DNA from: Onthophagus taurus
Taxonomy: Eukaryota; Arthropoda; Insecta; Coleoptera; Scarabaeidae
Reading direction: 5' to 3'
Assembly: GCF_036711975.1 (NCBI RefSeq)
Contig: NW_027248950.1
Span: 308,219-372,218 of the forward strand
Length of the DNA: 64,000 bases
Shown here: in pieces, positions 5,100 through 61,208 of the stretch
Position numbering within the stretch: the stretch's first letter is position 1
Layout: the number at the start of each line of letters is the position of its first letter
Notes under the pieces: generated by a model
What the model saw: the letters and a program-made list of their open reading frames with translations, nothing else
Databases searched by the model: none
Told to the model about the DNA's origin: nothing
Translations under genes and position numbers: made by a program

Positions 5100-5324
5100 T
5101 TACTCTACAATGCTAAAACGTTCTTGATATATATTTAATCTATAATCTACATCTAAATATTTTTCTAATAACTTATTTACGTTTCTTATCCTAGCCTTAA
5201 ATCTAATTCCGTCCAACATCTTTTCTTCCCAGTCACTTATCCTTGATTGTCTGTAAGCAAACGCCCAAGTGTGCATTCGGTACACTCTATTTTTCGATTC
5301 CCAAAACGTCACTTTTTTTTCCAT
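5100..5324 (-). CDS. Unknown 74-aa basic protein of element 1
   Basis: The ORF is taken from the ATG at 5324 (MEKKVTFWESKNRVYRMHTW); a longer frame from 5333 would need GTG. It is rich in Arg/Lys and aromatic residues with no signal peptide or membrane segment. It starts 10 nt after the stop of the 47-aa ORF and is part of a minus-strand cluster of tightly packed genes. MEKKVTFW loosely resembles a PP1-docking RVxF-like motif, but nothing else supports that role. No family is recognised. Confidence 0.4.
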   Translation of the reverse strand: MEKKVTFWESKNRVYRMHTWAFAYRQSRISDWEEKMLDGIRFKARIRNVNKLLEKYLDVDYRLNIYQERFSIVE

Positions 5325-11300: not shown

Positions 11301-11720
11301 TTAGTATTATTGATACAACCATCAATCCTCGTGATGACCAGTCTCAATACTTCACTACCTTACCCGATCAATATTATTGTCAATAAGTTTGCTCAATAAG
11401 TTACCTTTTTACCACGAACAGGGTGAATCTACGTAGTTTTACTCGGTTATTTGCCGGTTTTTCCTTTCCAAATAAGGATAATCGTACAAAAGCTTGCGTA
11501 GCTATTATTTTGGGAGTAGTATAAGAAGGAGAGTTCTGGAGCAGGATTATCCCATATCTTGCGCTCTGTGATTGGTTGAAATGCCAATATGGCGGTCAAA
11601 AATTTAGTAACTTTTAGGGATTTTCATTTTACATGTTGGCAATGAATCTCAATTATGTTGGTACTACTGAGGGTGGAGGGAATGCAAATTTTTTTAATAT
11701 AAATAAAAGTAGGGTGACCG
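8340..11720. other. Unassigned AT-rich DNA, no confident gene
   Basis: No gene is supported here. Short ORFs exist, for example a 44-codon frame at 9323-9457 on the plus strand and MSRDKKVADFY at 10086 on the minus strand, but nothing identifies them. A diverged inverted repeat of about 25 bp pairs 10065-10089 with 10217-10241. About 11250-11400 is rich in palindromic ATCAATATTATTGA words. A run of G lies near 8574-8583. Confidence 0.4.
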
Positions 11721-11724
11721 TCAA

Positions 11725-11734
11725 TATATAAAAA
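11725..11734 (+). promoter_or_regulatory. TATA box upstream of the PPP1R15-like gene
   Basis: TATATAAAA lies about 125 bp before the ATG at 11858 on the plus strand. This distance would allow a short leader; a donor-like AAAG|GTGAGT sits at 11834-11843 within it. The match is simple and AT-rich surroundings make chance occurrences common. Confidence 0.35.
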
Positions 11735-11857
11735 TTACGATTAATGATTCGTGCTACAATTAGGACTAAGTGTGTGAAAGTGAAAGGAGAATTAAAAAAA
11801 AAAAACAACAAACGTTACAGTGAACTTGTATTTTAAAGGTGAGTAATATACATTGAA

Positions 11858-12052
11858 ATGAAGCGTGTTAAATTTAAAGAAGATTTAGATGTGTATTATA
11901 TTGATGAAGACGAATATAGCAAAAATGCTAGAAACGGATCGGAATGGTTGCAAGCAGCTGCAGATAGGTATCGTTTTAAGAGACGTATTGAAGAAACTGA
12001 AAAATTATTGTATGAAATATTACGTAAAAAAAATGAGAAATTAAATAAATAA
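11858..12052 (+). CDS. PPP1R15/GADD34-like PP1 regulatory protein, 64 aa
   Basis: The whole protein corresponds to the C-terminal functional core of PPP1R15 (GADD34/CReP), which also occurs as stand-alone viral proteins in herpesviruses, asfarvirus and some poxviruses. RVKF at residues 3-6 is a canonical RVxF docking motif for protein phosphatase 1. It is followed by a short beta-like acidic stretch, then W30, AAADRYRFKRRI (33-44) and E45/E48. The Trp to Phe spacing (W30-F40, ten residues) and the DRxRFxRRI signature match the segment that binds G-actin and directs PP1 to phosphorylated eIF2-alpha. Predicted role: reverse eIF2-alpha phosphorylation and keep translation running during host stress. 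It stands alone at the left end of element 2, convergent with the 242-aa gene. Recognition is by motif, not a database search. Confidence 0.7.
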   Translation: MKRVKFKEDLDVYYIDEDEYSKNARNGSEWLQAAADRYRFKRRIEETEKLLYEILRKKNEKLNK

Positions 12053-12085: not shown

Positions 12086-12814
12086 TTAAATATGTAATCT
12101 TATGTATGGTTCTATTAGGTTTAAAACATCTACATAATCTTGTGTGTTTGTAGAGGGCCAATGTGCCGAATCAGGACCGGATTGCCATCCAACTGGTTTC
12201 CCTTTAGCTCCATTTCTCATGTTGTTTATTAACCATGCCATTATATTCTGGTGTGATATTCGCGACAGTGGCTCAAAGTTAAATTCATAGTTGAGTGCTT
12301 TGAAAACTTGTATACATCTTTTTACAAATTCATTGTCTGCACAATACAATGCATCGCAAATCAATTTATCACAATAATAACGTAAATTACGGTATTTACA
12401 TATAAGATTATTAATAGAAACAATTCCTTCGTTATCAGCGAATAAATTAGTTAATAAATATTTTTTATACATTTCATCAGTAAATTTAATACTTACGTTA
12501 CTAGTCAGTGATTCTAGATCTTTAACCTTCAATTCATTGTTGTTGTTTCGCTCGTAACAATTAAGCGATTCTAATGATTGCTTAACAACATGATTAAAAT
12601 TCAATTTTTCATTAAGAATTACTTCTAAAATTTCAACAGAAGCTAGGTGTAGATTTCGATATGTTAAAATCTGGTTTGGGATAATTATTTTTTCCAATAT
12701 GGTATTAACACCATCAAGATTATTTTCTTTGATAAAGTTTCTTAAATGATAGAAGTAGGTATGCTCCAACTTTCTATAGAAATCACTTTGAATTATAAAC
12801 AAACTACACTCCAT
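12086..12814 (-). CDS. Unknown 242-aa protein next to polymerase gene
   Basis: An intact ORF from the ATG at 12814, 33 nt after the polymerase stop and convergent with the PPP1R15-like gene (34 bp apart, with AATAAA signals on both strands). Composition suggests an all-helical fold with many Leu/Asn/Tyr residues, for example FYHLRNFIKENNLDGVNTIL and KLICDALYCADNEFVKRC. The C-terminus has a Gly/Trp-rich segment (GKPVGWQSGPDSAHWPS) that breaks this pattern. There is no signal peptide or transmembrane helix. No family is recognised. Position beside a host-response gene hints at an accessory role, which is inference. Confidence 0.5.
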   Translation of the reverse strand: MECSLFIIQSDFYRKLEHTYFYHLRNFIKENNLDGVNTILEKIIIPNQILTYRNLHLASVEILEVILNEKLNFNHVVKQSLESLNCYERNNNNELKVKDLESLTSNVSIKFTDEMYKKYLLTNLFADNEGIVSINNLICKYRNLRYYCDKLICDALYCADNEFVKRCIQVFKALNYEFNFEPLSRISHQNIMAWLINNMRNGAKGKPVGWQSGPDSAHWPSTNTQDYVDVLNLIEPYIRLHI

Positions 12815-12847: not shown

Positions 12848-15800
12848 TTAAGGTTTAAGAGTTGGTAATGTACCCTCACTACTACTACTACTAACAATAC
12901 GGTTATGACCCCAAGCTAACGTCTCTATACCATCATCTTTAATAAATCTCTTGGCATCGTACGGTGAAAGGACCAATTTATTTTGTAATACCGTGTATAC
13001 GGTGTGATTACAACTTCTAAATAAAATTTGTTTTGCAAACATAGTGTTTTTCAAAGTTAAACAATCGAAATAATTTTCAAATTTAATTTTATGTTTCACA
13101 ACAGCTTTTTTTACACCTTTAGCTTTTTTTGTAACACGACCATCAATAACACGATTTGCATACATTTTCGATCGTAACCCTATAAAGTCCGTCATAATTC
13201 TACCGCAATTCTCATCTTTCATAAGACCTAATACGGCTTTATTTTTAAGCGGGATCTTAAATTGATTATCCAGATGGTAATTCGAGGTGTCAAATTTATC
13301 TAAATTTAATTTAATATCTTCATATAGGTCATCTGTGTTAATATGTACAGTGAAGCTGTCCGTATCCATATAACACAATCGAATTGCTTCATTATATTTA
13401 GGTTTTAAAAAATTATAATAGAATTCATACATTAACAATTTTGAAATTTCTAAAACTGTAAAACCAACGTATATAGGTTTGTTGTAAACAACACGAAGTC
13501 GCTCCATTTGAATTGCCGAAAATGTTTCAGTAAAAATCTTAATATTTTTAAAATTTAACTTAGCGATTAGACTGCGAGCTCCGGGTTTTGACCTACCTTT
13601 TCCGCAAATGTCATCCCAACTTGTAATTAACCGAACATCAACTCTTTTATCCACGTTTTCCATCGTCTTTCCAAATACCGAATTATTCATTAGTTTAAAA
13701 AAGTCTCTTTCAAAATCATTTTTAGCGGATTGACGTAATTTTGTGTTCATATCAATATAAGGTTTCAACCACGCAGATTGTTTGAAGGATAAAACTCTAT
13801 TTACTTTCAAAACTTTGAGACCGTGAGCTATAGCGTGCTTTAAATTTCTATAATGAACAATATAATTTTTCTTGTTAAATAAATTTGGAATTAATCTTTT
13901 CTCGCTCTCACTGTTACTGCTGTTGGGAGGACATATGTTTTCTGCGAGAAAAGGTAGATCATTGTGTATATCGTGTAAATAATGAGGATATTCAATATCA
14001 ACATCCAAAATGTAACCATAATCAGCTTCATCGGATACATGATTAAAATTTAAATTTTGAATTTCAGTATCATCTAACCATTTAAAGTCTCCATAGGGCA
14101 TCGGTTGTGACATTGCCCAACCATACAAATTGTTAGCGTCCCAATACATTAGAAATTTCGAAGGAGAATTGGAGTCATAATTATCCATATATTTATTATT
14201 AGCTTTAGCATGACGTAATGAGCACTGCGAAATACCCCCACGAATGCCTTTTTTAATGAAATGGACTTGATCTACATCAGTCAATAATTCAAGTTTAATT
14301 TTTGTAAATTTTAACATTGCATCCCAAGTGAGTCCTGGTGTGGTGTAATAATGTGCTGGGTCCAATCCATAAGTTTCAAAACAAACGCGTCTAAATTTTT
14401 CAAAAACATCTGCTAACAAAAGAACATCGGTCTTGAGGTATAGGTCAGAGTAATCTTTTAAATTTTGACACTGAAATGTTTGCCAAACTGTTTGAGCGTG
14501 TAAATAATCTTTATCAGTTATATTTTCAAAACTTAATTTGTTAAAAAACCCGGATTTTTGTGGTAATGATGTTTCACTTAATTTTTCAAGTGAATCTATA
14601 TAGCCATAGGGAAATATACCCTTTCTCTTTAATAATTGAAATTGCTTATTACATGGGAAAAATTTTCGTACATGAACGAAATCCTCCTCTACAAGATTAC
14701 TCGACAATGAATCGAGTGAGGATGCCATAAATCGAAATGAATCCAAAAAAACGTAATTTCATGAACCGATTTTCAAAACGGGATTGATTCTGTATCTGAT
14801 CAACTAGCACGCTTTTACTGAAACTTATATATTTTTCTTTATTATTAGGTAAAACATCAATACCATTGACATCCTCAATGTCAGCCATCTCTTTAACAAA
14901 TAAATGTGCATCATAACAGCTGAAATTATGTAGGAATACAGGGATAAATTTGGGAATTTTAAAGTTAAGATTACATACAACATGGGCTGGGCCCCTATAT
15001 TTACCAGTTATATGACAATGATCATGCACCTTAACTACATCTTCTCCAAAAGGTGTTTTACAGATGTGACAAATGTTTGTTGCTTCAAATGCAACTTGTT
15101 CTTCAACAGTTAAGGGGGTCATGGGTTTTACATATTTTATATATTTGTGATAAATATATCTAACATCTTCCATTAATTTTAAAATGAAAACTTTGGGACA
15201 GTCGAGGCCGGTATAGGTTTCAAATTTACAACAAGTACCATCTACAGTAGAAACGATATAGTATGCAAAACTGTATGGTTGATGTATGTCAACTTTTTCT
15301 GTAAAAGACTTGGAGAAATCGGGTACACAATGCTCGATTGGTTTTAAAATTGATTCAAAATCAGCGTAAATAACAAATGGAACCATTTGAGTATTTTTAT
15401 AATTATTAAATTCCAAAATATTTTCCGGCATTAAATTTCCCATAAAATTGGGTATTGATTTTAAATTCTTCGATGGTAAAATGGTCGTTATATGGTTGCA
15501 ATCGTATTGTTGATGTCTAGATAATTTGTCGGCAGATGAAAACCGAGTTAAACACCCGTCGCAAAGACGTATTGCGCCGTTATGATTTGCTATATGCTTA
15601 GAAATAAGTCGTGATAAATTTTTGATTAAAACAAAATGCCCTATTCCATTATTAAATAAATATAATAAATTCACATGTGTATCTCGTCTATTTTTAGTAA
15701 AATGAATGGGTCCTTCCACATTGTAGGTATAATTAATGGAATCAAAAACTAATTCGTAAACGTTAATACTTAAATTATTTAAAGTTTCTATTTTGGATAT

Positions 15801-16797
15801 ATCTTTTAAATGAACGGGAAACGTTATACCTTCTAAATTTAGCACTTGAGAGTAATGAGGATAGCTTGAAGTACGAACCTTACTTATTTGAGCGGGATGA
15901 AGAGCCGCCGTCAAACACCATGCAAAACAAGCGTTATCATTATTCTTTATATTGATACAGGCTTTTTTATTAATAATTTCCGAAGGTAAACGAATATATG
16001 ATGATCCAGGTATTGGTTGGAATTTGTTAACGTTAAGCAAAAGGTGTGATACGGAGAAGAAAGCCCATCCAGACCCTTGCTCCTGGAAATCCTCACTCTG
16101 TTTTATAATATCTCTAATCATCTTATCGTAAATTTCCTCGAAGGTTATAGACGTAATTACTTTAAATTTTGTATTGAAATTCTTCATGGAGGCTATCACT
16201 CCCTCTTCACCGTTTTCATTAAAGCTGGATTTTATAAAAACAGCCAATAGTTCAATTTGAGCTTTAACTAATCCTCTAATATCACTAATATAATTGTTTA
16301 TAAGTCTACGAACCGTTTCTCGGGATCTTGTGAGGTATGATGGAATATCATCGTCGGCTTCAACTCCCCCAATTTTATAGCAGGCAACACGATTTTTGTA
16401 ACACGTTGATACTTGCTCAACATCCTTTTCGATAGATGTTATGTGTTCTGATCGAAGATGTGCCGCAAGGGTTGCGTGAGATGAGAAGAACTTTCCACAT
16501 ACGTCACATAGTTTATTTGTTAATTTAATCTTACTTTTCGAAGCTGACGTACTTGCTGCTGATTCATCGAAATCTCGATGTGTTGAATTTTGTATTAAAT
16601 TTGGTAGTGGATCTTTTCGTTGAGGTTCAATACCATGGATACTTCTCTGATGTTGAACAAAGGCATCTTGTCGCCTGAATTTTTTTTTGACATATTGAGC
16701 ATATGAGTTGCAGTCCGACACAATGCTTATTACGCATATGTCGATTCAAATTGCATTTTAATGAAAACACTTGTTGACATTTTTCACAAGAAAACAT
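12848..16797 (-). CDS. Protein-primed family B DNA polymerase of element 2, two frameshifts
   Basis: About 1,315 codons from the ATG at 16797. The N-terminus has C2H2 fingers (FSCEKCQQVF..HMRNKH and CDVCGKFFSSHATLAAHLRSEH). The exonuclease domain shows YADFES (Exo I, near 15360) and FLHNFSCYDAHL; a CHICKTPFGEDVVKVHDHCHI endonuclease-VII-like zinc knot lies between them. The polymerase domain has motif A DANNLYGWAM (about 14112-14142), motif B NNSVFGKTMEN (about 13657-13693) and motif C YMDTDS (about 13353-13371). This is the protein-primed PolB of Polintons. The frame is broken at a 9-base run (16680-16688) and a 7-base run (14745-14751); single-base slips at each separate otherwise continuous coding. 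They may be sequencing errors or genuine decay. Confidence 0.88.
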
Positions 16798-18157: not shown

Positions 18158-18676
18158 TCAGGCTTGATGATAATCAAACCATTCAGAAGTAACACTATTC
18201 AAATTAATCCACTTTTGTAGCAAGTGTACATTCTGAAGAGCACAGTTTAAATTATTATTGTAATGGTTATGACAGTGATTGGCATCACAACAACTTCCTT
18301 TAATCGATGATGTGTATCCTATTTCTTCTATATTTTTAATATTTTCAAAATTTGGCAGTAGCTGCTGTAACCACTGTTGCTTTTGTAATCCTTTCACTAG
18401 TATATAAGATTTTTCATGAAGTCCGCTTTCGTGTAAAATTTTGTTTAAATCAGTATATGGAATTTCACCATCATTCCAATTATGACCATGAATAAAATTG
18501 GTAGTATAACGAAGATGTTTCTGTTGTTCATCTTTGAATTCACTTAAATTTATACCAAATTTAAAAATAGCGTGGATTTTGCAACAACAATCACGAACGT
18601 TCATTAGCGCAAGTTCTTTACAGATAAATTCACTGCTATATTTTAATTGAAAACCTTGCACATCGAGAATCCACAT
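18158..18676 (-). CDS. Unknown 172-aa protein of Polinton-like elements
   Basis: A complete ORF from the ATG at 18676. It starts MWILDVQGFQLKYSSEFICKE and contains HNWNDGEIPYTDLNKIL, YILVKGLQKQQWL and a Cys/His-rich block CCDANHCHNHYNNNLNCAL, ending NVHLLQKWINLN. Proteins with this DVQGF...KEL...NCALQNV layout are a recurrent companion of insect Polinton-like genes. The conserved acidic residues (D5, E20, D of WNDG) could form a nuclease-like RNase H site, but I cannot establish that. It lies below the major capsid gene on the same strand. Confidence 0.5.
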   Translation of the reverse strand: MWILDVQGFQLKYSSEFICKELALMNVRDCCCKIHAIFKFGINLSEFKDEQQKHLRYTTNFIHGHNWNDGEIPYTDLNKILHESGLHEKSYILVKGLQKQQWLQQLLPNFENIKNIEEIGYTSSIKGSCCDANHCHNHYNNNLNCALQNVHLLQKWINLNSVTSEWFDYHQA

Positions 18677-18795: not shown

Positions 18796-19998
18796 CTATA
18801 TTTGATTAATCATACCAGTTAGAGGAACATATTTGAAAACACGATCATGCAAGATTAAACAGTAAAGGGTAGTATTATTAGGTATATCTTCGCTCGTTTC
18901 AAATTCAATGCGAATATCAACGGTTCCAACATTTAAAATATCATTTTGTCGTGAACAATCAATAACAATAATCGGTGTATTTGCTAAAAATGTGTCTCTG
19001 TTAAACATTGGTTCTGCAAGCTCTCGATCGTAATAGGACTTTGCAAAGTTACAATACATTTCATATAAAACTGCAATTTGACCAGTTTTAAAATTTAAAT
19101 GTAATGGTTCATAGGGATATTTTTCACTATTTAAGAACACTTTCATATCTGTTAAATTACAATGATCAAATAGAGATGCTGAAACTTTTGCATCATCTTT
19201 TCTATTGGTTTGAAATCCTAATATTAAGTAACGAGGTTTTTCCAATTGTGTAGATGTTTTAATTGTCCATGAGTGCTGTTTACTTTTTGGTAATGATGGA
19301 TACTCATGTAAATCAAATGAACGAAATCCCATATATAATTCAATTCCTTGTTCTATATGCTCTAAAAGTTTCAATCGTTCTACATCAGCCACCGACACGT
19401 GTGGTACCTTCCACACAATTTTATTAATAATAATCTTCATATTAGGTGTAGGACATTCAATGACATTATTATCTGAATTACTGCGTACTAACACCAATTC
19501 TTGACGTAGATTTATCAGGATTTTATTATAGTCTTCAGCAAAACCAAGAAAGTATTTCAAGGGAACACAAAAATCAAAATCACCTGTAGTTTCATTTATC
19601 TTAATGTTTAAATATTCAAAACCAGCGTTAGAAGAATGATAGTATTCAGACCTTGTTAACGAACAAAGATTTTTTAATGTGCTAGCTATTCCTGGATTTC
19701 TAACTCTATCAATTACATTACCTCCACATTCAAATCGTATTTCACTAAACATATGAGCGACTGGATTTACTGTTAATTTTGCATCTTTATCAACGGTTCC
19801 ATCACCTTTCAATAGTTTCCCTTGTACGTAAATAAACGATTGGCTTGGTAAAGTGTAAATGTCCTGTTGTTGGATTGCAATACGTATTTCATCACTATTG
19901 TTAAACGAATTTGATGAGTAAGGTAAATGATTATGATACTGAAGCCTCACAAGTGAATTATCAAATTCAAGCTTGTCCGAAACGCTTAAGATGCTCAT
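18796..19998 (-). CDS. Major capsid protein (double jelly-roll, hexon-like)
   Basis: An intact 400-aa ORF from the ATG at 19998. Beta-rich sequence with EFDNSLVRLQYHNHLPYSS near the N-terminus, EIRIAIQQQDIYTLPSQSFI, then VDKDAKLTVNPVAHMFSEIR and a C-terminal domain with IVIDCSRQNDILN and TLYCLILHDRVFKYVPLT. Gene order (after penton, protease and pX) and size are those of the hexon-like capsid protein of arthropod Polinton/adintovirus-type elements. It forms the icosahedral shell. The short length relative to vertebrate adintovirus hexons is typical of the insect set I recall. Assignment rests on context and fold-like pattern, not on a catalytic motif. Confidence 0.65.
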   Translation of the reverse strand: MSILSVSDKLEFDNSLVRLQYHNHLPYSSNSFNNSDEIRIAIQQQDIYTLPSQSFIYVQGKLLKGDGTVDKDAKLTVNPVAHMFSEIRFECGGNVIDRVRNPGIASTLKNLCSLTRSEYYHSSNAGFEYLNIKINETTGDFDFCVPLKYFLGFAEDYNKILINLRQELVLVRSNSDNNVIECPTPNMKIIINKIVWKVPHVSVADVERLKLLEHIEQGIELYMGFRSFDLHEYPSLPKSKQHSWTIKTSTQLEKPRYLILGFQTNRKDDAKVSASLFDHCNLTDMKVFLNSEKYPYEPLHLNFKTGQIAVLYEMYCNFAKSYYDRELAEPMFNRDTFLANTPIIVIDCSRQNDILNVGTVDIRIEFETSEDIPNNTTLYCLILHDRVFKYVPLTGMINQI

Positions 19999-20008
19999 AT
20001 TATTATTA

Positions 20009-20143
20009 TTATTTTATTAATTTTAATCCTAATGACAGAAGAAATTGTTTGTTTTGAGGTGTTAGATGTTTCACAGTTTGAAGATGATTAAAAATATTAG
20101 ATGTAGTTGTAGCATTTATATTACGCTTAACCTTAAGAACCAT
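20009..20143 (-). CDS. 44-aa basic ORF between penton and capsid genes
   Basis: The ATG at 20143 overlaps the penton stop by 11 nt and the stop codon lies 10 nt before the capsid ATG, so the ORF fills the space between two structural genes exactly. The product is basic (MVLKVKRNINATTTSNIF and ending FLLSLGLKLIK). Tight packing argues that it is real. No function is known to me; a small virion protein is plausible. Confidence 0.45.
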   Translation of the reverse strand: MVLKVKRNINATTTSNIFNHLQTVKHLTPQNKQFLLSLGLKLIK

Positions 20144-20843
20144 TGTAATAACTAGAGGGTTTTAAATGTAGTCTTACCTTAATGACTTCTCCTCTGAAAT
20201 TGACCAACAATCCATTCTGGTCAACTATTTTAAGAGTAATATTATCAATTATTTGTGTATTCAGAGGCATATATATTAAATTGTGAGGGGTTTCCGATAT
20301 TTTATAACCTTTAGGTACTGTAGGGAAAAATGAGTAGATGGTGTGTGCAGGTACGTCATTATGATAAGCTCCATGTGTTATGTTACATTGTATTTGTATA
20401 GAATTTATTTTAAATATATCTACAATATTTTGACTATTATGTGGAGATTTGTTCGAATCTAACACATCTGATTTATTAAAACCTAGTATTGTTGACATAG
20501 AATTGTCTACATTAAAATCAACTATTTTAGCACATGTAACCACTGCTTGTAATGTATCTTCATTTGCCTCTATACTAAAATTTGTATCTTCAATATTATT
20601 CTTCTTTAGTTGTTCATTAATGGCATTCGAAATGTGTTTTAATTCATAAGATCCTGTTGGTATTGATATCAACACATTATCTATTTTTAAGCAATTATTT
20701 GTTTCATCTATATTTGGAATTGAGTTGTACCCATCAAAGCTTACAAGTGCCAGTTCATATTGATAATTAGGATTCAGTTCTATTGTGGGGTGGTAATTTG
20801 CTGTTAGAACAGATGTTTTTCCTACTAAATCGAACGTCCACAT
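20133..20843 (-). CDS. Penton-like minor capsid protein of element 2
   Basis: A complete 236-aa ORF from the ATG at 20843. Its N-terminal 145 residues align with the penton-like gene of element 1 (FDLVGKTSVLTANYHPTIEL, YELALVSFDGYNSIPNI, SIPTGSYELKHISNAINEQL, ILGFNKSDVL). The C-terminal part (GAYHNDVPAHTIYSFFPTVP then PHNLIYMPLNTQIIDNITL) completes a single jelly roll. In Polintons this protein forms the capsid vertices. It starts 16 nt after the protease stop and is followed directly by the 44-aa ORF and the major capsid gene. Confidence 0.75.
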   Translation of the reverse strand: MWTFDLVGKTSVLTANYHPTIELNPNYQYELALVSFDGYNSIPNIDETNNCLKIDNVLISIPTGSYELKHISNAINEQLKKNNIEDTNFSIEANEDTLQAVVTCAKIVDFNVDNSMSTILGFNKSDVLDSNKSPHNSQNIVDIFKINSIQIQCNITHGAYHNDVPAHTIYSFFPTVPKGYKISETPHNLIYMPLNTQIIDNITLKIVDQNGLLVNFRGEVIKVRLHLKPSSYYNGS

Positions 20844-20859: not shown

Positions 20860-21258
20860 CTATAATGTGTTTGATGATAAGAAATTTAAACATAAATAAC
20901 CACAATTACTTGTGTTATAGGTTTGATATTGATTGTGATTGTATTTAATAATTACATTATTTCCAGCACTCTTAAAATAGTTTACAATTTTTTTACTTGG
21001 TTTTAAATTACCAAAACTATCAAAATAATTAATTATATTTCCTTTCTTAATATAGGCTGTCCAATGAGTGCCAGGTCCTTTCACACTATCCAAGTTAATA
21101 ATACCTCTTTCATTATTATTAATACGCAGAGGTAATTTATCTTGCATGAATATCCCTCTAAACTCTGGTATCCCCAACATTTTTACATAACGTATCAAGT
21201 CAACGTTTGTTAGCGCTTTCTGTTGTTGTTGTTGTATGGTTTTTTTTGGCGTTTCTTT
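20860..21258 (-). CDS. Adenain-like cysteine protease of element 2, -1 frame
   Basis: The His, Asp and Cys of the adenovirus-type protease triad are visible in GTHWTAY, YFDSFGNL and NCGYLCLNFL. The sequence IPEFRGIFMQDKLP and the preceding KALTNVDLIRYVKML match element 1 (IPHFRGIFMRDNLP, RALTNVELEKF). As there, the conserved start has no ATG: the frame is open upstream through TIQQQQKALTNV to a slippery heptamer in the pX-like ORF. The boundary given is the first base read after that shift, giving about 132 residues. It would process capsid proteins during virion maturation. Confidence 0.8.
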   Translation of the reverse strand, partial: KETPKKTIQQQQQKALTNVDLIRYVKMLGIPEFRGIFMQDKLPLRINNNERGIINLDSVKGPGTHWTAYIKKGNIINYFDSFGNLKPSKKIVNYFKSAGNNVIIKYNHNQYQTYNTSNCGYLCLNFLSSNTL

Positions 21259-21741: not shown

Positions 21742-22434
21742 ATGAAAGTGATAAAACAACCTTACACATTAGATGTTGATGATGTAACAATACAATTTAA
21801 CAATCAATCACCTCAAAACAGAAAGCATAGTTATTTATTTCCAAATAATCTACGTTGCATAATATCCGGACCTTCTAGCTCTGGTAAAACAAATCTGATA
21901 ATTAGTTTATTACAGGATCCTAATGGAATATCATTTAAAAATGTGTATGTGTATTCAAAGTCATTGTATCAAAACAAATATGAATATTTGAGAAAATTGC
22001 TGCAGCCTATAAAAGGTTTAGGATATTATGAGTATAGCAGTAGTGATGACATAATGCATCCCTCTAAAGCAAATGAAGATTCAGTTTTTATATTTGATGA
22101 TGTAGCATGCGATAAACAGTCAATTATTCGTGATTATTTCTGTATGGGACGACATAAGGCAATAGATAGTTTTTATTTATGTCAGAGTTACACACATATT
22201 CCAAAACATTTAATACGTGATAATGCAAACTTTTTAATACTTTTCAAACAAGATGACCTAAATTTAAGACATATTTATAATGATCACGTAACAACCGATA
22301 TGAAATTCAATGTTTTTAAGAAAATGTGTGCAATGTGTTGGAAAGATAGATTCGGATTTTTTGTAATCAATAAGGAGGACGATATGAATGATGGTAGATA
22401 TCGTAATGGATTTCATTACTATATAAAATTGTGA
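21742..22434 (+). CDS. Genome-packaging ATPase (FtsK/HerA type) of element 2
   Basis: An intact 230-aa ORF. Walker A is GPSSSGKT at residues 43-50, followed by LIISLLQDPNG; Walker B is SVFIFDDVACD near 114-122. It matches the partial gene at 1-445 across the shared region (NVYVYSKSLYQNKYEYLRKL and YYEYSSSDDIM). The enzyme drives DNA into preformed capsids in Polintons and adintoviruses. It is the first of five plus-strand genes that include PLA2 and integrase; the next ATG is 23 nt beyond its stop. Confidence 0.88.
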   Translation: MKVIKQPYTLDVDDVTIQFNNQSPQNRKHSYLFPNNLRCIISGPSSSGKTNLIISLLQDPNGISFKNVYVYSKSLYQNKYEYLRKLLQPIKGLGYYEYSSSDDIMHPSKANEDSVFIFDDVACDKQSIIRDYFCMGRHKAIDSFYLCQSYTHIPKHLIRDNANFLILFKQDDLNLRHIYNDHVTTDMKFNVFKKMCAMCWKDRFGFFVINKEDDMNDGRYRNGFHYYIKL

Positions 22435-22457: not shown

Positions 22458-22805
22458 ATGTTAGTGATACGAACAGGTGGAGAGCTGCATTTGCCTGGCT
22501 ATCAGTTTTGTGGACCTGGGACAAATCTCATGAAACGATTAGCACGTGGAGATCCTGGTATTAATAAGCTTGATAGAGCATGTAAACGTCATGATTTAGC
22601 ATATACACAATACACAGATTTACACAATCGACATAAAGCAGATAAAGTATTAGCCGAAGAAGCATGGAAAAGAGTATTAGCGAAAGATTCATCTTTTGGT
22701 GAAAAAGCTAACGCATGGTTTGTTACTAACGCAATGAAAGTAAAACGAAAATTGGGTTTCGGTTTGAAGAATCCGAAAAAAAAGTATCGGTGTTACAACC
22801 GATAA
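22458..22805 (+). CDS. Stand-alone parvovirus-type phospholipase A2
   Basis: The ATG at 22458 is chosen; the frame extends upstream only through GTG. Residues 12-22 (LPGYQFCGPGT) form the calcium loop and RACKRHDLAY carries the catalytic H45-D46. The C-terminus is basic (KVKRKLGFGLKNPKKKYR). This domain normally sits at the N-terminus of a virion protein and helps escape from endosomes. Here it is a separate 115-aa protein, whereas element 1 fuses it to the pX-like protein. No signal peptide is present, which fits a virion-borne rather than secreted enzyme. Confidence 0.8.
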   Translation: MLVIRTGGELHLPGYQFCGPGTNLMKRLARGDPGINKLDRACKRHDLAYTQYTDLHNRHKADKVLAEEAWKRVLAKDSSFGEKANAWFVTNAMKVKRKLGFGLKNPKKKYRCYNR

Positions 22806-24076: not shown

Positions 24077-24445
24077 ATGACTATTCACAAGTTCGGACAT
24101 CATATTTCTTCTTCTTCTGTTCTGTCCTCTTCAATTGAAGAAAACTATTATTATTACTTTAATATTACTTTGACTGGAAATAAAGTTCCAAATAATTACG
24201 CACTCAGTAATGAGAAATTATATTATACTTTTCCTATCAAATCAGGAGTAATTCATTCTATGACTATTTCACCATTGAGTACAATTCTTAAAGTAAACAA
24301 TGTGAAATATCAAAACTCTTTTGAGGGTATCCCATTGAAAAAAGGTGATAGATTACGATTCGTTCCATCTACTGTTACAGGGGGGATTAATAAGTTGTTT
24401 GTTGAAATCATTGTAAAATGTCCAGTGATGTTAAAAGAAAAATAG
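24077..24445 (+). CDS. Unknown 122-aa protein upstream of integrase
   Basis: The ATG at 24077 (MTIHKFGHHISSSSVLSSSI) is preferred; 12 more residues upstream lack an ATG start. The Ser-rich N-terminus leads into a beta-rich region (YYFNITLTGNKVPNNYALS, KLYYTFPIKSGVIHSM). The 3' end overlaps the integrase start by 28 nt in another frame. Proteins of this size and start occur beside insect Polinton genes. The beta pattern would suit a minor capsid or fibre-like protein, but this is inference. Confidence 0.5.
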   Translation: MTIHKFGHHISSSSVLSSSIEENYYYYFNITLTGNKVPNNYALSNEKLYYTFPIKSGVIHSMTISPLSTILKVNNVKYQNSFEGIPLKKGDRLRFVPSTVTGGINKLFVEIIVKCPVMLKEK

Positions 24446-25356
24446 TTGAAGAACTTCATAAACCTGCTCGAATACATTTCAAAAGGCGACATGTAATTGT
24501 TAAAGGGATAAATGATTTATACCAGGCTGATTTAGTAGAGATGATACCTTATGCACGACAAAACAATGGTTATCGTTATATACTCGTTGTAATTGATGTC
24601 TTTAGCAAATATGCATGGGCTGTTCCTGTAAAAACTAAATCGGGTAAAGATGTTACTAAAGCAATGAAAAGTATTCTAAAGGACCGATATGTACCAAAAA
24701 ATCTTCAAACTGATCTAGGAAAAGAGTTTTATAACAAAGAATTTAGCTTGCTTATGAGTAAGTTAAAAATTAATCATTACTCGACGTTTAGCTCATTGAA
24801 AGCATCTGTTGTTGAACGTTTGAATAGAACTTTAAAAGGTTTAATGTGGAAAGAATTTAGCATTCAAGGATCTTTTAAATGGTTAAAGTTATTACCACAG
24901 ATACTATTAATATACAATTCACATAAACATTCAACTATAGGTATGAAACCGATAGAAGTGAATAATAATAATAATAATAATACTGAAAAAAGATTACTGG
25001 ATACTGTTTATAATCGAATGAAAATAATCGCATTAAAAAAACAAAAGTTTCACTTAAATGATTTTGTAAGAATTTCTAAACATCGTGGAATATTTGCCAA
25101 AGGGTACACTCCTAACTGGAGTAATGAAGTTTTTAAAATTGTTAAGATTCAGTACACCAATCCAGTATCGTATTTATTACAGGACTTGAAAGGTGAAGAT
25201 ATTAAAGGTGCTTTCTATAGTGAAGAACTACAACGTACACACTATCCTGACATACAGTTAATTGAAAAAGTATTGAAACGAAAAGGAAATCGAATGTACG
25301 TTAAGTGGTTTGGAATGGATGAAAGAAGTTGGATTAAAAAATCAGATTTTGTATAA
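24418..25356 (+). CDS. Polinton DDE integrase with C-terminal chromodomain
   Basis: An intact 312-aa retroviral-type integrase. The rve core has D38 (LYQADLVEM), D99 (LQTDLGKEFY) and E133 (SVVERLNRTLKG). An Asn repeat (NNNNNNN, codons of AAT) lies between the core and the C-terminal part. An SH3-like segment (FHLNDFVRISKHRGIFAKGY) and a chromodomain-like tail (EKVLKRKGNRMYVKWFGM then SWIKKSDF) follow. It inserts linear element DNA into the host genome; the chromodomain may bias target choice. It is the last plus-strand gene and is convergent with the 208-aa gene at 25414. Confidence 0.9.
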   Translation: MSSDVKRKIVEELHKPARIHFKRRHVIVKGINDLYQADLVEMIPYARQNNGYRYILVVIDVFSKYAWAVPVKTKSGKDVTKAMKSILKDRYVPKNLQTDLGKEFYNKEFSLLMSKLKINHYSTFSSLKASVVERLNRTLKGLMWKEFSIQGSFKWLKLLPQILLIYNSHKHSTIGMKPIEVNNNNNNNTEKRLLDTVYNRMKIIALKKQKFHLNDFVRISKHRGIFAKGYTPNWSNEVFKIVKIQYTNPVSYLLQDLKGEDIKGAFYSEELQRTHYPDIQLIEKVLKRKGNRMYVKWFGMDERSWIKKSDFV

Positions 25357-26060: not shown

Positions 26061-26142
26061 ACGTCTGGTTTCGGCCGAAAATACGACCGCGACCGAATTT
26101 CGGTTTCGGCCCAAAATTGAGTTTCGGTCGGACACTAGTTAT
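26061..26142. repeat. Short CGGCCGAAA/TTTCGGTTTCGG repeat cluster
   Basis: Within about 80 bp, forms of ttcggccgaaa and tttcggtttcggcc occur repeatedly in both orientations. It sits between the 208-aa gene and the Penelope-derived inverted arm. It resembles a MITE-like terminal cluster, but no target duplication was found and the right terminal repeat of element 2 is not recognisable. Confidence 0.35.
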
Positions 26143-26164: not shown

Positions 26165-26720
26165 TAAAGAGTCTATTGAAGAACCCGTGCGACGATAGCA
26201 ACAAACCTCCCAGCAACAAACTTTTACCCGTAATTTCTTATCTACTTTCTTAGCTGATATCTTCCTTATAATTAGGGATAGCGAAAAACTATATGCACCA
26301 CTTGCAAGCTTGAATCTTTCTCTATCTAAAACCGGGTTTTCGTCTGCCGATAAGTTGATATTAAGATCAATAAAAAATGAAGAACACCGCGCTGTACTTA
26401 AAATAGCTCAAAATTACCAAACTTCAAGGTCTTGTGCAATTGTTACGAAACCGAATTTTAAAAAACTGTTATCACAGTCAGAAAGGGCGCTCCTTCAGCT
26501 ATCTTAATCCGGGTTTTCGTCGGTCAATATCTATCGGCGTCATGCTTAAATCACCCTTAATTTCCATCCCTACACGCAGAAACGCTTAAATACTCTTCCT
26601 TTAAACAACTTTCTTATTTGATAGGGAGAAAACTATAGAAACATATCTATCTTATTGAAAATTTTCTGCTCTTTCTAGTGGTGTATAACACGCGGCGATC
26701 ACGCGCTTGCACAAACACGC
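26165..26720. repeat. Outer inverted-repeat arm, left copy (Penelope-derived)
   Basis: This segment matches the reverse complement of about 31690-32228, beginning at gaagaacccgtgcgacgatag and ending near ggcgatcacgcg. Both arms contain a frame starting NLSLSKTG.SSADKLI. They are not identical: small indels and substitutions are scattered through them. Confidence 0.75.
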
Positions 26721-26825
26721 TTTGCGCCAAAAACTACTAACGTTGTGGATTTTTCTGTTTCTAGTTAACTCCCATTTTGTGACACTGTCTGTCACTTTGG
26801 AAATTTGTGATTCGATAAAAGCCAG

Positions 26826-27397
26826 TTATTTACGATGATAAATGTTTTATTATATTAAAACAGGATAATTCGGAGCAACAATGTTTCAACTGATAATCCA
26901 GCCTTTATCAAGCACGACTATAAGAAGTAGCGAAGAAAAAAATTACAATTAGTAAAGAATATTACAATTAGTGGAAAATATTAGAATAGTAAAAAATAAC
27001 AAAATTATTACAATTATTAAAAGGTGGAAAGACATGAGCCATTTTGTAAATTTTATTGAATTAACAAAGATATTTACCGTCAACGAAAGTGCCACAGATC
27101 AGTAGCGAACGTTATCGTATGGAACATTAGATGATTTCGGATTAATTTCACCACATTAGCTTTGGATAAAGTTTTAAAAAATTGAAGCGTGAGGCGCACG
27201 TGTTGGTTTTCAGATTATTAAAATTGTAAATTGAAGTAAAAATTAGAAGGAAAAATCTCTTTAGTCTTACCAATTATCATCGTAGAATATAAAACAAAAA
27301 CGTAAAAGAAAAAATCGACAAAAAGTAAAAAGTTAAATTTCAAATGTTAAAATGTCATTCTTGCGTGAAGCGCTAAGAAAGACTGAGGTCCCTGAGA
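26826..27397. repeat. Inner inverted-repeat arm, left copy
   Basis: Nearly perfect reverse complement of about 30037-30625, from tttacgatgataaatg to gactgaggtccctgag. It includes the segment encoding MSFLREALRKTEVPE. The two arms enclose the Penelope fragment and unrelated DNA. Terminal repeats in inverted orientation are known for Penelope-like elements. Confidence 0.8.
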
Positions 27398-28117
27398 GAA
27401 AATCGACCACCACCGACGCTATAATTCCTAAGAATTCGTTCAACTGCAAACAACACAAAGAAGCTGCTTTTAGATTCTTGTTTAATAGACTTTGTAACAC
27501 ACCTCCTAGTAATAATTATTATAATTTAGAACTAAAAACCATAATAAAAATAGGTCTTAGCAACGATTATAGCGTCGATGGTATTCAGGTAATTTATAAC
27601 AAAACTCATAACTCTTACATTAATAAATTAATAAATCCACATTTTTCTTCACCAATTAAATACATTTCTGTTCCATATATGCTCCCTCTCTTGAATTTAA
27701 ACTAAAACATAATCTTCAAAAGTTTAACACTATTCCTGCGTTTTCATCAGGCCTAAAAATTAGCAAACTCATTAACAATACCAAACATAGATTTGGAATC
27801 GAACAATCGAGTGGAGTTTACGAGATTCAATGCCCGGACTGTAATATGATTTACATAGGACAAACCGGCAGAAACCTAAAATAAGATTCAGAGGACATAC
27901 AACAAAAGACTCATCTGCCGTTTTTAAACATATTTCTACACACAGTCATAAAATCACTTTTCAAAATGTAAAACTTTTAAAAAATCTCAAAAAATCCAGA
28001 GAGATGGACCTATATGAGGAATACTACAGTTACGACGGAAGACTGAGGGACGGAGATTTGGTCATGAATGACAATACAGAGATAAACAATTACAGACAAT
28101 TTATTAAATTTATTTAA
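27352..28117 (+). pseudogene. Penelope-like element: RT C-terminus and GIY-YIG endonuclease
   Basis: The first frame has KNSFNCKQHKEAAFRFLFN, a conserved segment downstream of the Penelope reverse transcriptase. After a stop and frame changes, SSGVYEIQCPDCNMIYIGQT gives the paired GVY and YIG motifs of the endonuclease with its linked CPDC zinc motif. Following a frameshift at about 27880, IRFRGHTTKDSSAVFKHI, MDLYEEYYSY and a final NYRQFIKFI complete the domain. The RT core is missing and at least two frameshifts are present, so it cannot be functional. Similar RT coding sequence lies on the minus strand at 32225-32320. Confidence 0.75.
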
Positions 28118-28683
28118 ATTCATATTTTTTATATTTATTACTTTTCACGTTGCCCACCCCTCCATTTTCTTACATTCGGGTTCAGTCTCCGTCTTCACCT
28201 CAGTCACAGAGTACACAGAGGCCGGACTCCGGCTAATAAATTGGCACTCCTATCTATCCTTGTTCAACAAATGAAAAATTCGTATGATACTTTCTCTCTC
28301 ACATAAACTGAAACTGTGTAGATGGCGCAATTGTCGCGTTACAGTAGTATTTAAACAAACCAATAGATGGCACCATTTATTTCAAAATTTTTAACTCGTA
28401 GAGTTAAGAGAAAGCAATAGATGGCGCTATGTATTTTAAGTCGTAAATCTGTAAATCCCACGGCTACGTCCAGTTCTGTCAGACTTTCAGTGTTTTGTTT
28501 AATTATTGTGCAGTTTTGCGTGTTTATCGTTTGATTATTTAAACTACTAAACAAATTTATATCGTTTGATTATAGATTTGTTTAGCAGTTTATTTGTTTG
28601 AATAATTTAGTTTTCCTTAGTTTTATTGTCATACTTTGTTATCTTCGAATTAGTTGATTTTTGGTGGTAAAGTAAGGACGAAA

Positions 28684-28977
28684 ATGGATAGGATTTGCTA
28701 CATTTGCGGACGTTCGGTAGAGGAAGTGGTCAAGTTATTTTGATTTCCATTAAATACCAATAAGTACATTTATAGATTTAAGTTAGATAGATTTTTTGTA
28801 CTAAATGAAAATTTACTTTGATATTTTAGACAGCGATCATGGAATGAGTGCCTTGGTGTTCCTGTAGAAAACATATATTCTAGCCGAATGACAATTTGCA
28901 ATAATCATTTTGCAATGGAAAGTTTTATGTTGGATAGGAATTTTAAAGAACAAAGAGAAACAGATCTGGAGACTTAA
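28684..28977 (+). pseudogene. THAP-domain-like fragment
   Basis: The ATG at 28684 opens MDRICYICGRSVEEVVK, followed after a gap or intron (acceptor-like tttag at about 28828) by SWNECLGVPVENIYSSRMTI and CNNHFAMESFM. The CxxC, the Trp and the CxxH followed by F have the order of the C2CH THAP zinc finger found in P-element-type transposases and host proteins. A stop and no downstream catalytic domain make it a remnant. It lies inside the inverted Penelope arms. Confidence 0.45.
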
Positions 28978-30036
28978 GAAGAATTATGAAAATAAAACCA
29001 CATTACTGAGAGATATGTTAAACAAACCAGAATATTTTACTCAGGTTTTTAAAGGTAATGTTTACTTTCCAATTATCTAATCACGAATTGAGGCAATATG
29101 TTTAAGTCTTAGTTGTGATCATAGTTAAAGCAATGCAAACCATGATTATGATAAATGATGAACTAAGAACTTAAAACTATGACTAAGACTAAAACATGTT
29201 ACATGAATCTTGTTCCTTTTTGTTTTGTTTTAATTCTGATAAATTTTGCTAGGTTTGTTATTGTTTCGCTCACTTTAATATAAGATTAACTTTAAGTTAT
29301 AGTAATAATAATAAAGCATTAATTAAGTTTCAAATATTTTTGCATTTTAATTGATAGGAACAGAAACAAATAAAAAGAAATATTAAAGTTTTATATCAAT
29401 TGTTAATTCGGAAACAATAATTATTTTATAACTAAAACCACGTTTTATCACTAATACTGTATACTGCTCATTTTCGCTGTAATACTTTTCATTTTAGTAG
29501 CTCTGTAGTATTTTTTTATTCTGGCTGTCTTAAATCAGTTGTTTACCATAACAATTTGTATTCCTAAATTTGTCTAGAAGTTTATTTGACTTATGGTATG
29601 CTAGAGTTTTTCATGGGTTTTCCTCTAGCCTTGAAGCAAATGCTTTACCATTGTACAAAAACGCACCCATGAGCATGAAAACGATTAAATATTTAAAAAT
29701 TTATAGTTGTAAATTTTTGTCTATAAATATACATAGATTTCTTCTTCTGAAGTTTGCATTTTTATTTAATAATATTTTATTGGTTTTTTTTAATAACAAG
29801 TCCAAAAAAATCACTGTTTTCAGACAGTGTTTCAGACAATTTTTGCTTTTTTGGAACTTATTATTAAAAAAAATTTAAAGAGTAATGCGATTTTTATTTA
29901 AACGAGCATTCAAATTCCCGTTCGTATTTATCGATCGACTACACTACCGCCATCTACGCAGTTTCAATTCTCTAGAGAGAGATAGAATATGAGGTCCAAA
30001 TGAGAGCGGTATAAGTTAAGCATCTGGTAATCTGTG

Positions 30037-30625
30037 ACCTCAGGGACCTCAGTCTTTCTTAGCGCTTCACGCAAGAATGACATTTTAACATTTGAAATTT
30101 AACTTTTTACTTTTTGTCGATTTTTTCTTTTACGTTTTTGTTTTATATTCTACGATGATAATTGGTAAGACTAAAGAGATTTTTCCTTCTAATTTTTACT
30201 TCAATTTACAATTTTAATAATCTGAAAACCAACACGTGCGCCTCACGCTTCAATTTTTTAAAACTTTATCCAAAGCTAATGTGGTGAAATTAATCCGAAA
30301 TCATCTAATGTTCCATACGATAACGTTCTCTACTGATCAGATCTGTGGCACTCTCGTTGACGGTAAATATCTTTGTTAATTTAATAAAATTTACAAAATG
30401 GCTCATGTCTTTCCACCTTTTAATAATTGTAATAATTTTGTTATTTTTTACTATTCTAATATTTTCCACTAGTTGTAATATTCTTTACTAATTGTAATTT
30501 TTTTCTCCGCTACTTCTTATAGTCGTGCTTGATAAAGGCTGGATTATCAGCTGAAACATTGTTGCACCGAATTATCCTGTTTTAATATAATAAAACATTT
30601 ATCATCGTAAATAACTGGCTTTTAA
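30037..30625. repeat. Inner inverted-repeat arm, right copy
   Basis: Reverse complement of about 26826-27397. Similarity stops abruptly at cctcagggacctcag, where the left copy continues into RT coding sequence. Only occasional substitutions separate the two copies. Confidence 0.8.
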
Positions 30626-31557
30626 TTGAAAGTCTGTCACGACGACCTGAGTGAAAATCATTATAAACGATTTATGGAAAAATCCCTGAAATTGGTCTAA
30701 AGATTTAACTTTTGTGCAATTTTTTGGTATAGATTTCAAAATTGTTCCCTCATTTTTAACCCTTTAACGGTTAGCGGCTTTTATAGAGACCACTTGTCAA
30801 TAAGGTCAAATAGTTGCATTACCATAACTAAATCGTTTCTAAAAATGAAAACATAAATAATTTACCCGTTAAACGGTTAGTTATGACGCAATCGATATTT
30901 TTTTCAAATGGCAATCCCCCATTTTTATTACGGAATACAAAAGAAGGTTTTTTTCTGAATCTAGTACATTCAATATTAATATTGGTTACATAATAAAATT
31001 TTCGAGAAAAATTAGTTTAAACTTTAATTATTTCAAATTTATATAAATGATAAAAATAGCAGTAGCCATGAGTAACTATGGTAACTAATTATTTTAAACA
31101 ATTCACTGAGTGTCAAAAACTGATTTAGTAGCTTCTTGAGGTGTGGTGGTGCGCCATCTTGTTGGAATAACTGCCGTTGGAATTGAGTTGGGTCAAAATT
31201 AGTGGGATGGAAGGAATAGCACAGTTTTTAAAAATTTAAACATGTCTTTCCAGTTAAGGTTTCCTCAAATCTTTTGCGGATATTGGGTGTGCGCATTTTA
31301 AAGTCTACAGAAAAGTAACTAAATTTAAAGTCTACTAGTATGTTTACTAGTAACTCTACTAGTATGGGATGTAATCACAAAGTCTCCTGATTTTTCAGCA
31401 TATAATACGGTAGTGAGGGAAAAAAGTAGAGTTGCCATTTAAAAAAGTAAACTTTTTGAGATACGGAAATTTGACGCACATTTCTGACCATCCTGTATAA
31501 TTTTAATTAATAATTGTTGTTAAATTAAAGTGTATAATTCTTATTAAAAGACACCAT

Positions 31558-32345
31558 TAGAAAGAGCAGAAAATTTTCAATAAGATAGATATGGTTCTAG
31601 AGTATTTTCCTGCTCATATAAGAAAGTTATCGACCCGAACAGGGTTTAAGAATGGCTAAAACGTGTGAATTTAGCAGTTTTTGGCCAAAAATGTACGTGT
31701 ACACGCGCGTGATCGCCGCGCGTTATACACCACTAGAAAGCGCAGAAAATTTTCAATAAGATAGATATGTTTCTATAGTTTTCTCCCTATCAAATAAGAA
31801 AGTTGTTTAGAGGAAGAGTATTTAAGCGTTTCTGCGTGGAGGGATGGACATTAAGGGTGATTTAAGCATGACGCCGATAGATATTGACCGACGAAAACGC
31901 GGATTAAGATAGCCGAAGGAGCGCCCTTTCTGACTGTGATAACAGTTTTTTAAAATTCGGTTTCGTAACAATTGCACAAGGCCTGAAGTTTGATAATTTT
32001 GAGCTATTTTAAGTACATCATCATTTTTTATTGATCTTGATATCAACTTATCGGCAGACGAAACCCCGGTTTTAGATAGAGAAAGATTCAAGCTTTCAAG
32101 TGTTGCATTTAGTTTTTCGCTATCCCTAAGTATAAGGAAGATATCAGCTAAGAAAGTAGATAGGAAATTACGGGTAAAAGTTTGTTGCTGGGAGGTTTGT
32201 TGCTATCGTCGCACGGGTTATTGAAGAAGAATCTAAATGCTGCTTCCTTATGCTGAAGGCAAGTAAATGATTTTTTGGGGATTATGGAGTCTGTGGTGGT
32301 AGGTTTACGTTGAACGTTGTAGTCTGTTAACTGGTTTTGAATTGA
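31558..32345. repeat. Outer inverted-repeat arm, right copy, with RT fragment
   Basis: Positions 31690-32228 mirror 26165-26720. Further out, 32228-32320 encodes on the minus strand KKSFTCLQHKEAAFRFFFN, the same Penelope segment as in the central copy, so this arm extends beyond its partner. A direct duplication of the agaaag.gcagaaaattttc block occurs at 31558 and 31736. No gene is visible from 30630 to 31550. Confidence 0.65.
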
Positions 32346-61200: not shown

Positions 61201-61208
61201 AATTATAG

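Follow-up and report, generated by a model that had tools for sequence, protein, structure and literature searches.

The window, by which we mean the whole 64,000-nucleotide stretch of Onthophagus taurus DNA that was analyzed, contains a Polinton-type element carrying a 64-aa open reading frame (ORF) that resembles the core of PPP1R15 (GADD34/CReP). The ORF runs from an ATG at 11858 to a TAA ending at 12052 on the forward strand. An earlier interpretation made from the letters alone (the sequence-only reading) had named both the type of element and the type of gene, and the former is borne out by matches to a capsid protein, a Pox_A32-type ATPase, and an integrase core. The PPP1R15-like gene goes beyond that reading within the window itself: a second Polinton there has its own copy. 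The features are given below, with E-values in parentheses; A to F are lineages of the PPP1R15-like ORF.

5100..5324, reverse strand: PPP1R15-like core ORF, 74 aa, lineage B, in a separate neighboring Polinton (PF10488, 0.0052)
11515..11928, forward strand: left terminal inverted repeat (TIR) of the lineage-A Polinton (outer boundary common to other copies; 98.3% over 414 columns against the opposite end of copy L037)
11858..12052, forward strand: PPP1R15-like core ORF, 64 aa, lineage A (PF10488, 2.7e-5; DP71L, 1.2e-5)
12086..12814, reverse strand: 242-aa ORF adjoining the PPP1R15-like gene (no Pfam match at E<=1)
12848..14728, reverse strand: one of two frames of a polymerase-like gene (an ORF with no Pfam or PDB match)
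14697..16187, reverse strand: N-terminal frame of the polymerase-like gene, in the other reading frame, with an endonuclease-VII-like zinc motif (PF02945, 1.1e-5)
18158..18676, reverse strand: 172-aa protein, homolog of the domain fused to the core in lineages D, D2, and F (alignment A3; no Pfam match)
18796..19998, reverse strand: major capsid protein, double jelly roll (PF21738, 1.2e-110)
20133..20843, reverse strand: probable minor capsid (penton) protein (no Pfam match)
20860..21180, reverse strand: probable maturation protease (PF02902, 0.0026, below cut-off)
21742..22434, forward strand: packaging ATPase (PF04665, Pox_A32-type, 6.8e-9)
22458..22805, forward strand: phospholipase A2-like protein (PF08398, 4e-15)
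24418..25356, forward strand: retroviral-type integrase (PF00665, 1.9e-13)

We take the gene at 12848-16187 to be the polymerase of the lineage-A Polinton from its motifs, and the product of 20133..20843 is presumably the penton protein, an assignment made from position. The polymerase-like gene spans two overlapping frames, and the copy in the window consequently looks broken. No right TIR of this element was found in the window, where the match to L037 stops at 26064. Beside this broken right end lies another element with long inverted repeats (26176-32225). Farther along, at 57532-62865, a Gypsy-like pol ORF of 1222 aa precedes one of 476 aa, which has a hydrophobic stretch near its C-terminus and looks envelope-like by eye. 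Elsewhere in the assembly, on a large contig, we noted a full-length COX1 stretch (L070, G000:C1:21446788-21448128) that reads through under the invertebrate mitochondrial code and is either a nuclear copy or an assembly artifact.

The residues singled out in the sequence-only reading are all present as it had claimed, with RVKF at residues 3-6, W30, and DRYRFKRRI at 36-44. The spacing of the PPP1R15 core that it had asserted likewise holds, the gap of 24 between the RVxF Phe and the Trp being the same as in the human PPP1R15A chain. Searched alone against Pfam, the ORF matched PF10488 (PP1c_bdg) at E 2.7e-5. This match to the family profile is significant, yet its 24.4 bits fall slightly below the gathering score of 26.1; a relative from lineage D, searched as a whole protein of 222 aa, passes with 28.1. 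Among PDB chains, the best single-sequence match (phmmer) was the short form of DP71L from African swine fever virus (9nb9 chain B, 1.2e-5), followed by PPP1R15B (8.3e-4 and 9.1e-4) and, weakly, PPP1R15A (0.18). A splice-donor-like sequence (AAAGGTGAGTAAT) lies at 11835-11845, directly ahead of the start codon. Structure prediction of the 64-aa product, carried out for the monomer, gave a mean pLDDT of 70, with a helix at residues 28-63 mostly at 83-91 and the RVxF arm at low confidence (residues 1-11 below 50). An arm and helix of this kind fit the PPP1R15 core, in which both become ordered upon binding, but a lone helix is non-diagnostic. A Foldseek search with the monomer model returned no PDB match and one viral match, at E 6.3.

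To judge how readily such a likeness could arise, we used motif and profile statistics. A strict motif, in which RVxF is followed at set spacing by W, D, RF, and R/K, has two matches in the window, namely the 64-aa ORF and the 74-aa ORF at 5100-5324, and none in 3000 residue shuffles of the window's 521 stop-to-stop frames of at least 40 aa. A looser motif matched 52 times across the 3000 shuffled sets against two observed matches; both motifs were composed after inspection of the two ORFs. A profile of ten ORFs, all from this genome and including no known PPP1R15, was compared with PDB and matched PPP1R15B at 3.6e-12, DP71L at 1.2e-10, and PPP1R15A at 2.1e-10. Seven of the nine chains matched up to E 10 belong to the PPP1R15 family, and the remaining two stand at 3.9 and 6.8. 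A profile of lineages B, C, and E alone still matched PPP1R15B at 1.6e-5, and all ten aligned members matched PF10488 at E<=1, the best at 2.2e-7. Profiles built independently also detect each other's members: without A and A-prime, the profile finds the 64-aa ORF at 9.3e-11 among 958 window frames (next unrelated frame 0.42), and a profile of D only finds it at 2.3e-7 (next unrelated frame 0.62). The best E of the full profile against reversed window frames was 0.11. Consequently, although the protein is short, its own Pfam score lies below the cut-off, and the looser motif does turn up in shuffled sets, a chance likeness in a short charged helix is rejected at the sequence level by the shuffles, the PDB comparison, and the leave-out profiles, and has next to no probability. 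The homology to the PPP1R15 core is thus directly supported, and judged by its sequence the 64-aa ORF is a real core of the PPP1R15/GADD34 type, as had been proposed.

The gene moves with the element. Lineage-A elements start AGTAGTATAAG, and the left TIR (11515-11928) takes in the first codons of the 64-aa ORF. We tried nine end pairs of other lineage-A copies, two of which lacked a recognizable terminus; among the seven scorable pairs the 6-bp target duplication is perfect in six, the exception being C6 (L002/L037). Capsid, ATPase, integrase, protease-like gene, TIRs, and 6-bp target duplication are all shared with Polinton/Maverick elements and adintoviruses. We rejected the possibility of a host gene lying next to the element, since the start of the ORF is inside the TIR and 11 further full copies show it traveling with the TIR. 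At the opposite end, the TIR of lineage-A elements contains a truncated copy with the RVxF arm alone, residues 1-26 (11 rows; for example, L037:1541-1645). In A-prime the whole gene is inside the TIR, giving two copies per element (L039:1602-1796, L040:2240-2434). Nine inverted pairs of A-prime, 8.6-9.0 kb apart, have the full gene at both ends, and in one of them the inverted match extends over about 1.7 kb at 98%.

PPP1R15-like ORFs are spread through the genome. In the 290.8-Mb assembly we counted by hand about 200 places in nine lineages, a lower bound, and representatives of different lineages share no more than 51% identity in pairwise comparison. As had been anticipated, other Polintons carry homologs with the Trp/Phe/Arg signature. 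Hand counts for the larger lineages, again lower bounds, gave 12 full-length copies of A at 95-100% identity (none with a stop), 39 rows of A-prime at 47-52% identity (two with stops) plus two poorer rows, 76 rows of B at 68% identity or more (three with stops), and 64 rows of C at about 50% identity (one with a stop). Lineage D has at least six full copies in 231-aa frames and two broken ones, D2 and D3 at least three places each, and E at least one; the single F place that was found has a stop in the N-terminal portion. A genome scan with PF10488 gave 88 places, six of them over the cut-off, and none in the 14 named control genomes. The lineages were collected through homology to each other and to PF10488, some being printed through motif filters, and the conservation counts therefore cover recognizable members only. 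No relative turned up in a viral contig collection scanned with the capsid protein, the proteins of lineages A, D, and E, and the B/C/E alignment.

The position of the gene is also similar in some lineages. In B, C, and E it follows a 211-240-aa ORF with a common ADLHF-like stretch (by eye) and precedes a small-basic-protein gene and a protease-like ORF. A homolog at the same position had been sought, and these three lineages do hold the gene between like neighbors, in a late gene cluster. The small basic protein is fused to a phospholipase A2-like domain in C (2.4e-13) and E (by eye). In lineage D the core comes after the capsid gene and an ORF of 271 aa, and its reading frame runs on into a second domain; D2 and F show the same kind of fusion. 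The fused loci (L009:1504-2172, L056:1168-1857, L043:1506-2120) have the domain pattern DxQGF...VKGxQK...CxxH...C, and the domain is 27-31% identical to the separate window protein at 18158-18676. AlphaFold gave one middling model of it (pLDDT 69.8) and four at 41-49. In a Foldseek comparison with PDB, the best matches were REXO2 (E 0.0098, probability 0.98, TM 0.49) and ISG20 (0.022), none reaching E 0.001 or below. Some lineages may thus join the core to an exonuclease-like domain, on weak evidence that makes the predicted fold a lead only. In D and E, the stop of the upstream ORF overlaps the start of the PPP1R15-like gene as ATGA (L009:1504-1507, L027:1549-1552), an arrangement like that of stop-start translational coupling.

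Transposons do carry pieces of host genes, and the ORF could be a useless passenger, derived from a fragment of host PPP1R15 that the elements picked up; the near-identical copies inside one lineage tell little about selection. The comparison between lineages is more informative, although it draws on one or a few members per lineage (ten rows in the invariance alignment and nine in the rate comparison) of the roughly 200 places, with D2, D3, and F absent from alignment A1 and F represented only by its open part. In all seven near pairs (within A/A-prime, B/C/E, and D/D2/D3) dN is below dS, with dN at 0.39-0.49 and dS at 1.4 or more or saturated; for example, dN and dS are 0.40 and 1.77 for A/A-prime, 0.39 and 1.40 for C/E, and 0.41 and 1.42 for D/D3. 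Divergence between near lineages is therefore mostly synonymous. Over the 36 lineage pairs, pN exceeded pS in two (A/E and A-prime/F), the distant pairs being uninformative because they are near saturation. A recent host source was not recognized either: searches of the genome with PF10488, two Polinton lineages, and the human PPP1R15B core returned known Polinton-lineage places and no host PPP1R15, which an intron in the core could hide from these searches. A 305-aa frame at C8:20676187, considered as the host gene, proved to be a copy belonging to lineage D: the sequence at its N-terminus is foreign, and the frame runs into the D C-terminal domain. With nine lineages at most 51% identical keeping both the frame and the contact residues, we regard a passenger as highly improbable.

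The contact residues can be read against published complexes. In PPP1R15A, Trp582 matters in substrate dephosphorylation, Phe592, Arg595, and Arg612 are actin contacts, and Arg587, Asp588, Arg591, and Arg594 form the eIF2-alpha side (PMC8500838). Counted from the Trp, the 64-aa ORF has equivalents of Asp588 (D36), Arg591 (R39), Phe592 (F40), Arg594 (R42), and Arg595 (R43), then Ile; it has Ala at the 587 equivalent and Glu at the 612 equivalent. Trp (582/662), Asp+6, Arg+9, Phe+10, and Ile+14 are kept in all nine lineages and Arg+13 in eight, F having Tyr. Columns invariant in all ten aligned rows are V4, W30, D36, R39, F40, R43, I44, and L55. The conserved Trp, Asp+6, Arg+9, Phe+10, Arg+13, and Ile+14 correspond to PPP1R15 positions that touch PP1, actin, or eIF2-alpha. 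Other positions vary. The Arg612 equivalent is found in six of nine lineages (B, C, D, D2, E, and F) and is missing in A and A-prime. The Arg594 equivalent (+12) is Arg in no lineages but A and A-prime; D, D2, and D3 have Lys there, B, C, and E have Ala or Asn, and F has Asp. Arg+5 (587) is kept only in D and D3. A V/I-x-F is readable in seven of nine lineages (A, A-prime, B, D, D2, D3, and E; by eye in D3); the site reads KVRI in C and is unreadable in F. In PPP1R15, an arginine four residues before the Trp fills a PP1 pocket (PMC4394352). Lineages B, C, E, and F have this arginine, A and A-prime have it shifted by one place, and D, D2, and D3 lack it.

The same comparison places the ORF among known systems. 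In the PPP1R15B/CReP (4v0u) and PPP1R15A/GADD34 (7nzm) cores, RVxF, Trp, Asp, Arg-Phe, and Arg-Ile stand in the order and at the spacing that they have in the ORF. Between the Phe and the Trp, lineages A, A-prime, B, C, and E have a gap of 24-25, and D and D2 one of 19, so that lineage A has the 24 of PPP1R15A and lineage D the 19 of PPP1R15B. With DP71L the ORF shares a length of about 70 aa, the RVxF, W-x9-F-x2-R, Asp+6, and Arg+9. It ends 34 residues past the Trp and the 71-aa DP71L chain 35 past it (counted by eye for DP71L), so the far C-terminal part is missing in both. In PPP1R15B, loss of a segment starting about there abolishes actin stimulation (PMC4394352). The short C-terminus of A and A-prime consequently counts against full activity of the window version. 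However, the loss of Arg612 and of the C-terminal part is not defining, because DP71L, a recognized member, ends at a similar place. DP71L differs in its shorter RVxF-to-Trp distance and in its carrier, a large DNA virus whose hosts are mammals and ticks, the window ORF being part of an integrated multi-copy transposon. Gamma34.5 (ICP34.5) of herpes simplex virus is a larger protein with other functions besides. It is described as having a GADD34-like C-terminal region and an RVxF, and DP71L and gamma34.5 are treated as accepted viral PPP1R15 orthologues (PMC10807198). Vertebrate PPP1R15 proteins exceed 600 residues and have membrane and eIF2-gamma-binding parts, whereas the Polinton core stands alone or fused; the core of about 70 residues is described as both necessary and sufficient for selective eIF2 dephosphorylation, and as having small counterparts in viruses and invertebrates (PMC10998612).

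The ORF could instead encode a decoy for PP1 or actin that blocks host PPP1R15 or other PP1 holoenzymes. The copy with only the RVxF arm in the opposite TIR of lineage A would suit such a role, as would the loss of the RVxF Phe in lineage C. Yet the truncated copy reflects no more than the extent of the TIR, and lineages of full length retain the PP1 face as well as the substrate face, so that we think a decoy quite improbable. A better alternative, though still an unlikely one, is a PPP1R15 descendant that still recruits PP1 but has switched to a different substrate, such as a viral or host protein of particle assembly. The variable eIF2-alpha contacts at Arg+12 and Arg+5 would be expected of it, and the B, C, and E genes sit among particle genes and not early genes. 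It fits less well with the retention of Asp+6 and Arg+9 on the eIF2-alpha side in all nine lineages and of the actin contacts Phe+10 (all nine) and Arg+13 (eight).

We consider it likely, from these sequence features, that the ORF encodes a minimal PPP1R15 core that serves its Polinton as an eIF2-alpha holophosphatase subunit and keeps translation on. The RVKF arm would dock on host protein phosphatase 1, with Trp30 sitting on PP1 close to the active site. The helix that begins at Trp30 would bind G-actin on one face through Phe40 and Arg43, and its opposite face would bind the N-terminal domain of eIF2-alpha through Asp36, Arg39, and Arg42. PP1 could then strip the Ser51 phosphate, and translation would continue while the element makes capsid proteins and DNA, which would be the benefit to the element. 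The same genome has a gene of the substrate family (eIF2-alpha, PF07541, 88.4 bits). Insects have the eIF2-alpha kinases GCN2 and PERK, which we presume to be the opponents, GCN2 together with PPP1R15 being a subject of published work in Drosophila, and the trigger may be GCN2- or PERK-type signaling during production.

PPP1R15 cores of viruses are already known; the novelty here lies in their carriage by a Polinton, in how many lineages there are, and in the doubled (TIR-borne) and fused forms. No report joining PPP1R15 or GADD34 with Polintons was found among the literature matches listed, which leaves absence from print unproven, and the terms GADD34, PPP1R15, and eIF2 are absent from the searched main-text passages of two papers on double-jelly-roll and adinto-type viruses (PMC11071296, PMC11071308). 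A wider reading, which we offer tentatively and as somewhat short of probable, is that these genes represent an old and widely kept PPP1R15-type antagonist of the stress response in arthropod Polintons, that the elements have a productive viral stage now or had one recently, and that some of the antagonists are fused to a DEDD-type 3'-5' exonuclease-like domain. An integrated-stress-response antagonist of this age and spread would mean that Polintons have, or had, a productive stage that triggers eIF2-alpha phosphorylation and needs to undo it. If the fusion is what it appears to be, it would link the rescue of translation to RNA decay, a pairing not known from any virus.

Whether animal Polintons are transposons only or infectious viruses too is a long-standing question. 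An antagonist of translational defense is useful in a productive cell that resists, and its retention in nine lineages is therefore indirect, testable evidence for a viral, possibly infectious, stage. Our results suggest that these Polintons, like some large DNA viruses, own a tool against host antiviral shutdown. Viral PPP1R15 mimics, which are known in a few large DNA viruses, would thereby extend to integrated elements of middle size. The lineages would also provide natural minimal cores that can be compared for what eIF2-alpha dephosphorylation requires, and in insects they may offer a route to asking which eIF2-alpha kinase counts against DNA viruses.
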